IMG/VR virus record: IMGVR_UViG_3300030333_003967
Location: 1 to 41,294 of that record
Source of the DNA: a virus
Reading direction: 5' to 3' (one strand)
DNA: 41,294 bases
The notes beneath the pieces were generated by a model, which had not been told where the DNA came from, did no database searches, and worked only from the letters and a program-made list of their open reading frames with translations. Within the stretch, counting starts at the first letter, position 1, and each line of letters opens with the position of its first letter. Made by a program: the position numbers and the translations under genes. This document shows, piece after piece, positions 4,597-31,604 of the stretch.

Positions 4597-4624
4597 ATTA
4601 TACACCCCTATACACCCCTGTCCA
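4597..4624 (-). promoter_or_regulatory. promoter for the 48-aa gene, inside the methyltransferase 3' end
   Basis: On the minus strand TGGACA (4624-4619) and TATAAT (4602-4597) flank a 16-base spacer. The spacer holds GGGGTGTAT twice in tandem, and the layout copies the leftward promoter at 4365-4392. The methyltransferase stop codon (4610-4608) lies within it. Confidence 0.75.
4600..4619 (-). repeat. tandem AGGGGTGTAT repeat (two 10-bp units)
   Basis: Two perfect head-to-tail copies of AGGGGTGTAT on the minus strand, one helical turn apart. They fill the spacer of the promoter at 4597-4624, and the second ends in the -10 box. The first copy also encodes the last residues of the methyltransferase. 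Confidence 0.7.
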
Positions 4625-5501
4625 TGTCTAAGACTCTTTGTAAGGGAATTGCCGCAACTTGAGGACAGACTGCATTACCTAATGCTTTAAGTCTGTGTGT
4701 CCAATTGGATAGCCCATCATCTCCTCTACGAAGGACGGGTTCAGACTCATAGGATTGCCAGTTGGGGCTAAGAGTCGATCCTTTCTTGCTAAAGCTGCTA
4801 GGCAAGTTCCAGATTGACGATCCCAGTCTCGCAGACTGTACTTGTGTTCGTGTGCTGAAGGTGTTGGAAGACGACGTAGTTTGTTGAATAGTTTTACTGT
4901 CTCTGGATTGACTGCTTCCCTCAAGTTTGCCAGTTTCGTTCTGCCTTTTCTCGGCCCTTCCATTTGTTTCTTCAATGCCTCTGGACTTCTCTGAGGGAGA
5001 TGATCCATAGTCGTTGGGGTAGGCAACGAGCCACCATCTGTCACGGATATGACAGGCTCCCAATGCACTCGCAGGTATGCACGCATATTCACAATCGAAG
5101 CCTGCCTTGGCCAGCTCTCCGAGTACGATTCCCAATCCGTTATTAAGGATCGCTGCCACGTTTTCCAAGACGATGTATTTGGGTCGAACCAAGCGAATGA
5201 CTCGGATGAGTTCGTAAAAGAGACCTGACCTAGTTTCCTCGGTGATACCTTTACCTTGTCCTGCAACTGAGATGTCTTGGCAAGGGAATCCACCGCAAAC
5301 AACGTCGGCTGAATATGGTTCTGGGTTGTAGCTTTTGATGTCGTCATAGATAGGTATATTAGGCCAATGTTTTTTTAATACCTTTTGGCAGTAGGGTTCA
5401 CACTCGACAAATGCAACCGTTTTAAATCCTCCAACAAGTTTTTCAGCGGCGTAACTAAAACCGCCGATTCCTGAAAAAGTGTCGATTATTTTTAAAGACA
5501 T
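4608..5501 (-). CDS. DNA (cytosine-5)-methyltransferase
   Basis: A 297-aa C5 methyltransferase that transfers methyl groups from S-adenosylmethionine to cytosine. Visible motifs: I DTFSGIGGF (7-15), IV GGFPCQDIS with catalytic C74, VI ENV (113-115), VIII HIRDRWW (R153, R155) and X LKALGNAV (271-278). The target-recognition region (about 165-265) is serine-rich. It probably protects the phage from host restriction. The ATG at 5501 directly follows the T-tract of an intrinsic terminator and has no Shine-Dalgarno. A second long open frame overlies residues 52-274, and a promoter lies in its 3' end. Confidence 0.92.
   Translation of the reverse strand: MSLKIIDTFSGIGGFSYAAEKLVGGFKTVAFVECEPYCQKVLKKHWPNIPIYDDIKSYNPEPYSADVVCGGFPCQDISVAGQGKGITEETRSGLFYELIRVIRLVRPKYIVLENVAAILNNGLGIVLGELAKAGFDCEYACIPASALGACHIRDRWWLVAYPNDYGSSPSEKSRGIEETNGRAEKRQNETGKLEGSSQSRDSKTIQQTTSSSNTFSTRTQVQSARLGSSIWNLPSSFSKKGSTLSPNWQSYESEPVLRRGDDGLSNWTHRLKALGNAVCPQVAAIPLQRVLDMDRGV
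4679..5347 (-). CDS. possible overprinted ORF within the methyltransferase gene
   Basis: A 222-codon ATG-initiated frame lies wholly inside the C5 methyltransferase gene, offset by one base. Its protein reads like a real one: LFAVDSLAKTS lies opposite the catalytic GGFPCQDIS, then TSSWKTWQRSL, SESWPRQ, LPTPTTMDH, a second LPTP, and a C-terminus SLNPSFVEEMMGYPIGHTDL. I recall these motifs from standalone phage hypothetical proteins with a similar order, but cannot search. It may be a second protein made by overprinting or only a conserved shadow of the methyltransferase. It has no clear ribosome binding site. Confidence 0.35.
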   Translation of the reverse strand: MTTSKATTQNHIQPTLFAVDSLAKTSQLQDKVKVSPRKLGQVSFTNSSESFAWFDPNTSSWKTWQRSLITDWESYSESWPRQASIVNMRAYLRVHWEPVISVTDGGSLPTPTTMDHLPQRSPEALKKQMEGPRKGRTKLANLREAVNPETVKLFNKLRRLPTPSAHEHKYSLRDWDRQSGTCLAALARKDRLLAPTGNPMSLNPSFVEEMMGYPIGHTDLKH

Positions 5502-5525
5502 AAAAAAAAAGCCCCTTGCGGGGCT
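5502..5525 (-). terminator. intrinsic terminator immediately before the methyltransferase ATG
   Basis: On the minus strand AGCCCC-GCAA-GGGGCT forms a 6-bp stem with a GCAA tetraloop, followed by a run of T whose last base abuts the methyltransferase ATG at 5501. It follows the gene ending at 5532. Confidence 0.88.
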
Positions 5526-5531
5526 AGTGGT

Positions 5532-9977: not shown

Positions 9978-10205
9978 ATGTCTGTCTCATCTAAGAACAA
10001 GCCTGTAGTGGATCGACTCATCCTTATCCTTGCTCAGGCCAAATATACGGCCGCTGCTATCGCCGATAATGCTATCGACGATCAAGTCCCAATTGATGAC
10101 GAATCGATAATGATGTTGTCACGCGATTTAAACTCTATAAAAAATTACCTTCATACTGCTTACGAAATTAATGACCTCGATCAATCAGCTAAAGAGCGAT
10201 CATAA
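9978..10205 (+). CDS. small helical protein, unknown function
   Basis: A 75-aa protein from ATG 9978 (MSVSSKNKPVVDRLILILAQ). The frame is open upstream to an ATG at 9924, but those residues overlie the GTTCCC repeats and look non-coding, so the inner ATG is preferred; neither has a clear ribosome binding site. The sequence is helical (AKYTAAAIADNAID, LSRDLNSIKNYLHTAYEIN). It overlaps the following ParB/methylase gene by 35 nt. No family recognised. Confidence 0.5.
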   Translation: MSVSSKNKPVVDRLILILAQAKYTAAAIADNAIDDQVPIDDESIMMLSRDLNSIKNYLHTAYEINDLDQSAKERS

Positions 10206-11364
10206 AAATGCCCGCAAAAGGACAGATCGATCCTCTTCTCTAATCAAAGAATCCTTAGAAAAATTTGGGGCTGCTCGTTCCATAGTCATCGATGAAGAAA
10301 ACAGAATCCTTGCTGGTAATGGAACCATCGAAGGAGCAAAAGCCGCTGGAATAAAAAATCTTCGAGTCATAGAAACAGATGGTCAAGAAATTATTGCTGT
10401 AAAAAGAACAGGATTGTCAGAAGAGGAAAAAGTTGGGCTTGCTCTAGCCGATAACAGAACCTCCGACCTTTCAGAGTGGGATGCTGAAATGCTTAAACAG
10501 CTTTCAGAAGAACAAGATTTAAATCCTTGGTTTGATGAAAGTGATCTTGCTGAACTGATAGGAGAACCAGAAAAAATTGAAGGCTTGACAGATCCCGATG
10601 ATGCCCCTGACGTACCAGAAGATCCAATTACTAAGCCTGGTGATTTATGGATATTGGGTGAGCATCGTCTTCTTTGTGGAGATTCAACAAGTATTGAGCA
10701 ATTAGAAAGGTTGATGGATGGGAAGCAAGCTGATTTATGGCTTACTGATCCTCCTTATAACGTGAATTACGAAGGCAAGACGAAGGATAAATTAGTAATT
10801 GAAAACGACTCAATGAACGCTCAAGATTTCAGGCAGTTTCTTGTTGATGTATATACAGCGGCTGATGCTGTAATGAAATCTGGCGCTCCATTTTATATTT
10901 GGCATGCAGATTCTGAAGGGTTTAATTTTCGTGGGGCTGCAGATGAAATGGGTTGGAGGGTAAGGCAATGCTTGATTTGGGTAAAGCAAACAATGGTGAT
11001 GGGTCGCCAGGATTATCACTGGAAACATGAGCCTTGTTTATATGGCTGGAAAGAAGGTGCTGCTCACACTTGGAATACAGATCGAAAGCAAACAACAGTT
11101 CTTGAATTTGACAGACCAAGTAGGAATAAGGAACACCCAACAATGAAGCCTGTTGATTTATTCCAATATCAAATGTGTAATTCTTCTGTTCAAGGGGCAG
11201 TAATTTTGGATTCGTTTGGTGGTTCTGGAACGACAATTATTGCTGCGGAACGAGCAAGACGTAAAGCTTGCTTAATGGAACTAGATCCACGCTATTGCGA
11301 TGTAATCGTCAAAAGGTGGGAGGATTTTACTGGTAACAATGCAAAACGTGTAACATCTAGTTGA
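10171..11364 (+). CDS. ParB-like nuclease domain fused to DNA N6/N4 methyltransferase
   Basis: A 397-aa fusion. Residues about 1-130 are a ParB/sulfiredoxin-like domain (SIVIDEENRILAGNGTIEGA, then EEEKVGLALADNRTSDLSEWD). The rest is a beta-class amino-methyltransferase: DPPY (193-196) comes before FGGSGTT (349-355), with EHPTMKPVDLFQYQM between. It methylates adenine N6 or cytosine N4. This combination is common in phages just upstream of terminase and may mark DNA against restriction or before packaging. It overlaps both neighbours and is read in one operon with the terminase genes. Confidence 0.9.
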   Translation: MTSINQLKSDHKNARKRTDRSSSLIKESLEKFGAARSIVIDEENRILAGNGTIEGAKAAGIKNLRVIETDGQEIIAVKRTGLSEEEKVGLALADNRTSDLSEWDAEMLKQLSEEQDLNPWFDESDLAELIGEPEKIEGLTDPDDAPDVPEDPITKPGDLWILGEHRLLCGDSTSIEQLERLMDGKQADLWLTDPPYNVNYEGKTKDKLVIENDSMNAQDFRQFLVDVYTAADAVMKSGAPFYIWHADSEGFNFRGAADEMGWRVRQCLIWVKQTMVMGRQDYHWKHEPCLYGWKEGAAHTWNTDRKQTTVLEFDRPSRNKEHPTMKPVDLFQYQMCNSSVQGAVILDSFGGSGTTIIAAERARRKACLMELDPRYCDVIVKRWEDFTGNNAKRVTSS

Positions 11365-30800: not shown

Positions 30801-31604
30801 GTCTTTACACAAAGAGAAGATGAAGACAGCCCACCATTTCAAGGAACAGCCACAAATTGCCATTACAGCGAAACAGAGGATGCGTTAGTTCTGGATGGTC
30901 AAAATCTCGATGAGATGCCAGATTTCGATGCGATCGTCAACTTTGATGTTTTAGGTGATATTGATGCGACGGGTACTTATACATTCAACGAAAAGATAGA
31001 TTTAGGTGCGACTTATTCTGTTGATTTAAAACGTCATTTTGCAACGGTTGGTTATTTGCCTGCGGATCTTTTAGATTCACGCGCTTCAACAGTTGACACG
31101 TTTGCCGATTGGGATGGGGAAGTCCAAAATGTAGACGCGAAATTGTACATGAGAAGCACATCAGGAGACCCCGCAAGTGGTGGTTCTAGTTGGTCATCGT
31201 GGCAAGAATTTGTAAATGGAACATTCCGCAATCGGGGTTTTGAGTTTAAAACTACTCTTACAAGTTCTGACACTGATGAATCAATCAAGGTTACAGAGTT
31301 AGGAGTTAGCGCAACACTGCAAAGAAGGTCAGAGCAGAGCGACGGAGCAATCGCAAGTGGTACGGCAAGCGGAGGTAAAACAGTCTCATTTTCTAAATCT
31401 TTCTTCACGGGAACTGCTGCTTTAGGCGGTGCTAATTCAAAACTCCCTTCAATTGGAATTGTTGCTCAAAATATGCAGGCGAATGACATTGTGAACGTGA
31501 CTGCTGTAACCGCAACAAACTTCACCGTTAAATTCCAAAATGGTGGAGCTGTTGTTGATCGCAATTTCACATGGTCAGCCGTTGGATATGGCCTTGGAAG
31601 CTGA
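27870..31604 (+). CDS. tail tip attachment protein J-like with N-terminal Hint domain
   Basis: A 1244-aa host-specificity protein. After 11 residues a Hint (intein-type) domain covers residues 12-141; a glycine-rich stretch follows, then the usual J start (DDSLQSRQMATVLDLLAEGE, IQGLDDGNKSVYLGGTPVQ). The middle is the tip hub fold, followed by FN3-like domains (EFRVQYKIDNDNW) and a C-terminal region likely to contact the receptor. The ATG directly abuts the I stop. Without the Hint the J length is normal. Excision would leave a normal-looking J. Confidence 0.9.
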   Translation: MRQIQGAGGGGCFAGHTLVKTGDVEKRIDEIKEGDYVWSFDDQGRIHESKVLKVHKHEDEKIVEYKLWGGIKLCATPNHWVLNQYNAFVEIGSLGFDDCLVNTDDHLLPIVGKKELENGTVYNLTVEDHHTFFAGGIRVHNAGLGIAGSGGGGGGKGGGGGSQHVPTEADDSLQSRQMATVLDLLAEGEIQGLDDGNKSVYLGGTPVQSPGGTNNFEGFTIITRNGTQGQSYISSLAGAESEKQVNVTVIQSTPVIRQITDTDVDRVRVTIKIPALQVVEDDGDIVGHSVQYELQAQYNGGGYSTFAVDTVTGKSSASYQRDYMVNLAGAFPVDIKVIRLSPDDASARKQSKTIWSSYTEIIDEKLRYPNSALIYLRFDARNFGSIPARKYLVRGLKIQHPHNASIDTSTYLGRVTYSGTFNGTLGAAQWSSDPAWCLWDLLTNTRYGASIPAASLDRYDFYTISQYCNELVSDGKGGQEPRFALNLLINSRDEVYNVIQELTSLFRGISYYASGSLVLQQDKPSDSQYLIGPSNVVGGEFIYSGTSQKARHTTCTVAYQRYDSLGEVQYEYVEDADAVAKFGVINADFRAVGCYSQGQAHRAGKWLLLSENNLTQTVSFGISIESGITLRPGMVIDISDPVRAGTRRSGRCSTGSTTTQVVIDSATDLSVDMGNSPTISVILPTGLIETKTITGISGTTVSISDSFSVAPAQAAVWLIQTTDVQSQQYRVLNVVESGDGGYAVTALEYNSSIYEAIESDINLTQRDITDLSAEPDPVSSISSTEFLYQEGQTVHSAVDVSWISPTTNVSEFRVQYKIDNDNWQVLTTTSPSVTIRQTRPGLLQLQVQAYNHLGKGSQISTSSIELIGKTARPGDPTNLTFEAISANSGRLRWDKSTDLDVLVGGSVSIKHSSKTDGSGTWANSVSLIPAKSGIQTEAIVPLVEGEVLVKFVDDGGRQSTNAASVIVDLPDTMNQLGVFTQREDEDSPPFQGTATNCHYSETEDALVLDGQNLDEMPDFDAIVNFDVLGDIDATGTYTFNEKIDLGATYSVDLKRHFATVGYLPADLLDSRASTVDTFADWDGEVQNVDAKLYMRSTSGDPASGGSSWSSWQEFVNGTFRNRGFEFKTTLTSSDTDESIKVTELGVSATLQRRSEQSDGAIASGTASGGKTVSFSKSFFTGTAALGGANSKLPSIGIVAQNMQANDIVNVTAVTATNFTVKFQNGGAVVDRNFTWSAVGYGLGS
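27903..28292 (+). other. Hint / bacterial-intein-like domain inserted in tail protein J
   Basis: A 130-residue module from C12 to N141 of J. Block A: CFAGHTLVKTGDVEKRIDEI, then GDYVWS. Block B: CATPNHWVL (T..H). Block F/G: VYNLTVEDHHTFFAGG, then IRVHN. The N-terminal Cys, the T-x-x-H, and the terminal His-Asn of inteins are all present, with no homing endonuclease. The residue after Asn is Ala, not Cys/Ser/Thr, so ordinary splicing is unlikely and BIL-type cleavage or atypical splicing is expected. Confidence 0.87.

Follow-up and report, generated by a model that had tools for sequence, protein, structure and literature searches.

A nested +1 reading frame probably encodes the recognition subunit of a viral C5-cytosine DNA methyltransferase

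One stretch of viral DNA appears to carry two overlapping reading frames, one for each subunit of a C5-cytosine DNA methyltransferase; the two chains would pair, with the nested one, beta, setting the target. We put the probability of this reading at roughly 0.87. The window analysed was one virus record of 41,294 bases (IMGVR_UViG_3300030333_003967), in which terminase, portal, major head, helicase and primase genes of phage type are present. Beta is an ATG-started frame of 222 codons that lies wholly within the outer gene, alpha, in the +1 register relative to it (Table 1). An earlier note on this DNA had drawn attention to a 222-codon ATG frame embedded in the methyltransferase gene, and the frame was found as described, on the minus strand, together with the SESWPR, LPTPT and LNPSFVEEMMGYPIGHTDL motifs that the note had listed. 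The next longest shadow frame had been put at about 118 codons, which agrees with the longest clear antisense one (118 codons, 31052-31408). In the proposed mechanism, alpha, read in frame 0, would bind AdoMet and hold the catalytic motifs I-VIII and motif X, and beta, read in +1 from its own internal ATG, would supply the target-recognition modules and motif IX, preceded by a conserved N-domain. The alpha and beta chains would pair into one active enzyme, beta would decide which sequences are methylated, and the enzyme would probably shield the phage DNA from host restriction. Beta is most likely the missing half of alpha's own enzyme, its DNA-recognition part.

Table 1. Features of the two nested frames, in window coordinates (rows from annotated records were left out of the alpha and beta motif alignments behind the conservation statements).
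Feature	Position	Strand	Remarks
Alpha	4608..5501	-	C5-cytosine DNA methyltransferase, catalytic subunit, 297 aa (297 codons)
Alpha motif I (IIDTFSGIGGFSYAA)	5445..5489	-	nearly invariant in the alignment
Alpha motif IV, catalytic Cys (GFPCQDIS)	5268..5291	-	G71, F72, P73, C74 and S78 invariant
Alpha motif VI (ENV)	5157..5165	-	E113, N114 and V115 nearly invariant
Alpha motif VIII (HIRDRWW)	5031..5051	-	H151, R153 and R155 invariant
Alpha residues 166-264, recognition region in its passenger frame	4710..5006	-	all with pLDDT<50
Alpha motif X (RLKALGNAVCPQVAAIPLQRV)	4632..4694	-	R270, G275, N276, A283 and P286 conserved
Beta	4679..5347	-	222-aa product of the nested +1 frame; proposed to be the specificity subunit, with recognition domain and motif IX
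Beta start codon ATG	5345..5347	-	formed by alpha Tyr52-Asp53 (TAT GAC)
Beta residues 41-107, conserved N-domain (ESFAWFDPNTSSWKTWQRSL...WPRQ...)	5027..5227	-	dual-coded with the alpha catalytic domain
Beta putative recognition module 1 (LPTPTTMDHLPQRS...LFNKLRR)	4871..5026	-	in 45 of 78 betas, at array positions 1, 2 and 4
Beta putative recognition module 2 (LPTPSAHEHKYSLRD...RKDRLLA)	4766..4870	-	in 8 of 78 betas
Beta motif-IX-like end (LNPSFVEEMMGYPIGHTDL)	4688..4744	-	by pattern and by position just before motif X

The features of a C5-cytosine methyltransferase present in alpha are motifs I, IV, VI, VIII and X and a Rossmann-like fold. Alpha matched PF00145 (1e-39) over positions 1-232 of the 324 in the profile only, and its TIGR00675 match (1e-34) reached position 210 of 329, so that both end before motif IX. 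The fold was of the HhaI/HaeIII type in Foldseek, with the folded part matching M.HhaI and M.HaeIII (HhaI match with E 1e-13 over about 170 columns). In the AlphaFold model, residues 1-165 averaged a pLDDT of about 90, whereas residues 166-264 stayed below 50 and showed hardly any secondary structure. Motif X, at whose beginning the beta stop falls, was folded again (pLDDT 70-94 near the C-terminus). Motif IX and a recognition domain in the same chain were not found in alpha, as the profile matches end early and residues 166-264 are unstructured and unconstrained. The earlier note had read the frame, if real, as overprinting of a conserved enzyme with intact motifs. The idea of a foreign protein laid over a complete enzyme was not supported, since alpha is incomplete: its own frame has no motif IX, and the part that links motif VIII to the place of motif IX is free of constraint and disordered by prediction. 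A hairpin resembling an intrinsic terminator (GCCCCGCAAGGGGC, followed by nine T) occupies 5502-5526, immediately before the alpha ATG, and no Shine-Dalgarno sequence was found between the two. The window also carries a second methyltransferase gene (10171-11364) with a ParB-like N-terminus and a DNA methyltransferase domain (phrog_498, 2e-141).

The embedded frame is a real, conserved second gene, and the DNA that carries it is dual-coded. The longest open run in the +1 frame of alpha is 231 codons; the +2 frame contains 24 stops and no run above 31 codons. When alpha's own synonymous codons were permuted, a +1 run of at least 231 codons appeared at a frequency of 2e-5 in 50,000 trials, and when codons were resampled by the codon usage of the phage, none of 50,000 trials reached that length (longest 182). 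As such trials almost never give this run, the embedded frame is beyond chance even without its homologues. An open +1 run alone was not significant for some GC-rich single genes, and for this reason the case rests on the homologue sets. A scan of viral contigs with beta alone returned 211 relatives, 80 of which were kept, and a scan with alpha added 12. Beta homologues were present at approximately 95 loci, in the same +1 register inside a C5 methyltransferase gene; every locus with both matches had beta at +1 of alpha, and both frames were open at all close-set loci except one.

Stops were counted at 75 loci (18,121 codons), with the expectation taken from codon permutation. The beta frame contained 2 stops vs. 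469 expected, while the third frame, used as a control, contained 1255 vs. 1276 expected. In the reverse test, in which the beta codons of the recognition region were permuted, there were no alpha-frame stops vs. 344 expected, and 545 third-frame stops vs. 484 expected. The loci are kin to each other and the counts are not independent, the effect being far larger than relatedness could give. Stops fall far below expectation in the beta and the alpha frames, which means that selection keeps each of them open. A non-coding shadow, kept open by base composition or by the amino acid sequence of alpha, would recall that long shadows are common in GC-rich genes and that one copy has two beta-frame stops; set against these counts, with the control frame at expectation, and against third bases that diverge many-fold less inside beta's recognition part than next to it, such a shadow has a negligible probability. 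The earlier note had also considered that the standalone phage proteins it mentioned might be a set of misannotated methyltransferase shadows. That alternative is rejected, as the homologues lack routine stops in the embedded frame and the synonymous sites of alpha are strongly suppressed across beta. Both beta-frame stops occur in a single homologue (L086, beta frame from 3149), the only one of the close set to have any; the rest of its beta is recognisable and its alpha is intact, so that decay or a miscall may account for the stops.

In the +1 arrangement, the third base of an alpha codon is the second base of a beta codon, and nearly every change that is silent in alpha therefore alters beta. 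We computed frame-resolved divergence at the 4-fold sites of alpha over 1,393 homologue pairs. Divergence was 0.45-0.59 upstream of beta and 0.36-0.64 over beta residues 1-40. It was 0.16-0.37 (third base) over residues 41-110, 0.05-0.11 over the target-recognition region (residues 111-170), 0.38-0.50 in the variable stretch (171-200) and 0.07 at the motif-IX-like end (201-220), and rebounded to 0.61-0.67 right past the beta stop; the synonymous-site profile of alpha thus switches at the boundaries of beta. Over beta residues 111-170, the amino acid divergence of alpha was 0.54-0.73, and beta's own 4-fold sites differed at 0.46-0.59, which is the level of unconstrained sites. Amino acid divergence was 0.54-0.82 over alpha residues 162-241, and the beta protein sequence is conserved among homologues. 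The order of constraint along the gene is alpha alone, both, beta alone, and alpha alone again. The recognition region, between motifs VIII and IX, is constrained in beta, and alpha is there a passenger that merely stays open.

This pattern bears on a division of labour like that published for M.EcoHK31I, in which the large chain holds motifs I-VIII and X together with the predicted recognition domain and the small chain holds motif IX (PMC3404938). Transferred to the window, that description would leave the recognition domain in alpha, with beta giving motif IX only. We regard this as very improbable, because the recognition region of alpha diverges per residue as given above while its synonymous sites barely change, the reverse is seen in beta, and the same region of alpha is predicted to be disordered.

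The beta start ATG derives from the [HY]DD motif of alpha, at one of two adjacent places. An ATG stood at one of these in 64 of 64 sequences, where about 5 sequences with neither would be expected (an estimate based on codon usage in these genes). No Shine-Dalgarno sequence was present upstream of the beta ATG in any of 73 homologues, and our best guess is that beta is made by internal initiation without one. Beta is probably translated from this ATG and would bind alpha. A programmed +1 frameshift out of alpha after motif VIII would instead give one chain with motifs I-IX; it would suit the constant +1 register and the missing Shine-Dalgarno sequences, and the Gordonia phage protein Gudmit gp58 is indeed a longer chain, with its motif IX-X end in frame 0. 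Nevertheless, a shift past motif VIII is disfavoured because beta residues 41-107 are already constrained, that is, constraint at residues 41-110 lies upstream of any switch that retains motif VIII. The ATG is, moreover, kept throughout, split homologues are annotated with starts of their own, and the alpha frame is kept open through to motif X. We consider the frameshift unlikely and keep to a separately initiated beta. In a group of loci from Acinetobacter, Salmonella, E. coli and Leptospira (L094, L104, L111, L117 and L130), the beta frame is open almost from the alpha start (MSWLFSQAL...), and dual coding could there cover nearly the whole gene.

Within beta, the N-domain (residues 41-107) was also found in split homologues. 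It is followed by blocks that open with an LPTPT-like sequence, of which we counted 195 in 78 betas (1-5 in each, median length 37 aa; none was detected in one beta). The same block occurs at differing positions in different phages. The beta of the window has two such modules, and with the longest arrays alpha is open over 479-542 codons and the beta frames over 413-475 codons. Tandem exchangeable blocks between motifs VIII and IX are a hallmark of multispecific C5 methyltransferases, and recognition modules are therefore the natural reading of the LPTPT blocks. By analogy, each module may be a recognition unit with a target of its own.

At the end of beta, E208 and M211 are invariant, and P204, F206, V207, M210, G212 and T218 are conserved in at least 90%. 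The consensus, [NS]P.FVEEMMG[YF]P.GWT, fits the motif IX pattern described for C5 methyltransferases. Beta matched PHROG 1008, annotated 'DNA methyltransferase' (3e-19, model positions 28-281), the family to which the standalone phage proteins mentioned in the earlier note correspond, and the alpha C-terminus with motif X gave a weak match (0.009) to positions 295-320 of this model. As beta and the motif X of alpha match consecutive parts of the model, PHROG 1008 seems to hold beta and motif X in one chain. Beta is thus a member of this family by sequence, with the difference that the model also takes in motif X, a part that the window encodes in the alpha frame. Profile comparison of beta with canonical monomers (three, plus Gudmit) gave nothing significant, there was no significant Pfam match, sequence searches of solved structures gave chance matches only, and beta alone modelled poorly (mean pLDDT 50). 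In view of the Pfam and monomer-profile results, the assignment rests on pattern, position and the PHROG bridge, which together suggest that motif IX sits in beta. A conserved overprinted protein with another role, for example a regulator of alpha that is no subunit of it, would be compatible with a beta that has neither a significant Pfam match nor a confident fold, but it would leave alpha's own frame without motif IX and without a structured recognition region. The beta end is also at the place of motif IX, and in split homologues a single frame runs from it into motif X. Such a role seems quite improbable, and a recognition subunit remains the preferred reading of beta.

The arrangement combines features of several known systems. 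In M.AquI, the split falls between motifs VIII and IX, and the small chain holds the distal recognition region with motifs IX and X (PMC3404938). The window resembles M.AquI (CYCGRG) in placing the recognition region, which is there in part, and the putative motif IX in the small chain; it differs in that the M.AquI beta also has motif X, which is here in alpha, with beta ending inside alpha. It resembles M.EcoHK31I (YGGCCR), by description, in an alpha with motifs I-VIII and X and in a small chain with a motif-IX-like end. The M.EcoHK31I small chain is also said to be nested in the large gene in another frame, reportedly described by Lee et al. in 1995, as beta is nested in alpha. In M.EcoHK31I the predicted recognition domain is attributed to the large chain, whereas constraint and folding locate it here in beta, and betas of the window type often carry tandem modules that are probably recognition modules. 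Multispecific phage C5 methyltransferases of the SPbeta kind are single chains in which exchangeable recognition modules, each about 40 residues long, follow one another in tandem between motifs VIII and IX. The LPTPT modules, as putative recognition units, resemble these in kind and position, whereas the array is here in a separate nested frame and there in one chain and one frame. What seems new here is an M.EcoHK31I-like layout together with a recognition domain in beta (as partly in M.AquI) and a modular array. A literature search that left most subscription papers and REBASE uncovered found no published account of such phage nesting.

The same two-frame layout was seen in phages of Synechococcus, Microcystis, Mycobacterium (SG4), Vibrio, Sulfitobacter, Bacteroides, Porphyromonas, Acinetobacter, Paenibacillus, Lactobacillus and Salmonella, on Leptospira, Acinetobacter and Bacteroides plasmids and on a megaplasmid of Methylorubrum, in archaeal, planctomycete and Bacteroidota contigs, and at an E. 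coli prophage-like locus, where beta extends slightly beyond alpha. The gene tables of most related records list alpha only. We consider it likely, if less firmly than the reading of the window itself, that phages, plasmids, bacteria and archaea share a large class of C5 methyltransferases, for the most part unannotated, in which the recognition subunit is encoded in the +1 frame of the catalytic gene. Its combinatorial array of modules would be shuffled in the form of cassettes that code in two frames and must not close either (with a beta frame of up to 475 codons in a 542-codon alpha). Nested same-strand genes of this length with so clean an evolutionary signature are rare, and the two frames would here encode the two halves of one enzyme, sharing constraint in turn. 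If this is true, most examined homologous records of a 'DNA cytosine methyltransferase' describe half of their enzyme, alpha-type records expressed alone could yield no methylation or the wrong one, specificity must be read from a gene absent in databases, and the shuffled modules would provide a ready series linking sequence to target site.

True monomers (SPbeta, phiKp_17 and Javan599) have motif IX in frame and +1 stops near expectation, and the beta profile found no match in them. Lactobacillus phage Lc-Nu, Paenibacillus phage Mock2 and Salmonella phage S9-5 were discarded as monomer controls, being themselves nested pairs. Split homologues were found in Firecracker (gp6/gp5) and RemusLoopin (gp34/gp35), where alpha stops past motif VIII and beta starts inside alpha and carries on in a single frame over LPTPT, the motif-IX-like stretch and motif X, a small chain with motifs IX and X like that of M.AquI. 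Their C-termini match phrog_116, which also covers alpha at full length. Llama gp74/gp75 was set aside as a split homologue because its break differs, lying inside the catalytic domain.

Three further records depart from the usual annotation or layout. In the Pseudomonas phage VB_PaD_phPA-G (L107, 776-1504), the annotation lists the beta frame as the CDS and leaves out the catalytic alpha frame. In Gudmit gp58 (L114, 757-2142), frame 0 encodes motifs I-VIII and later the motif IX-X end, and the +1 frame encodes the beta N-domain and LPTPT modules; it is possibly an intermediate between the nested and the single-chain forms. In E. coli PCP07014 (L116, 1000-1761), an alpha-type gene with an internal stop is annotated as a pseudogene, and the beta profile matches its +1 frame.
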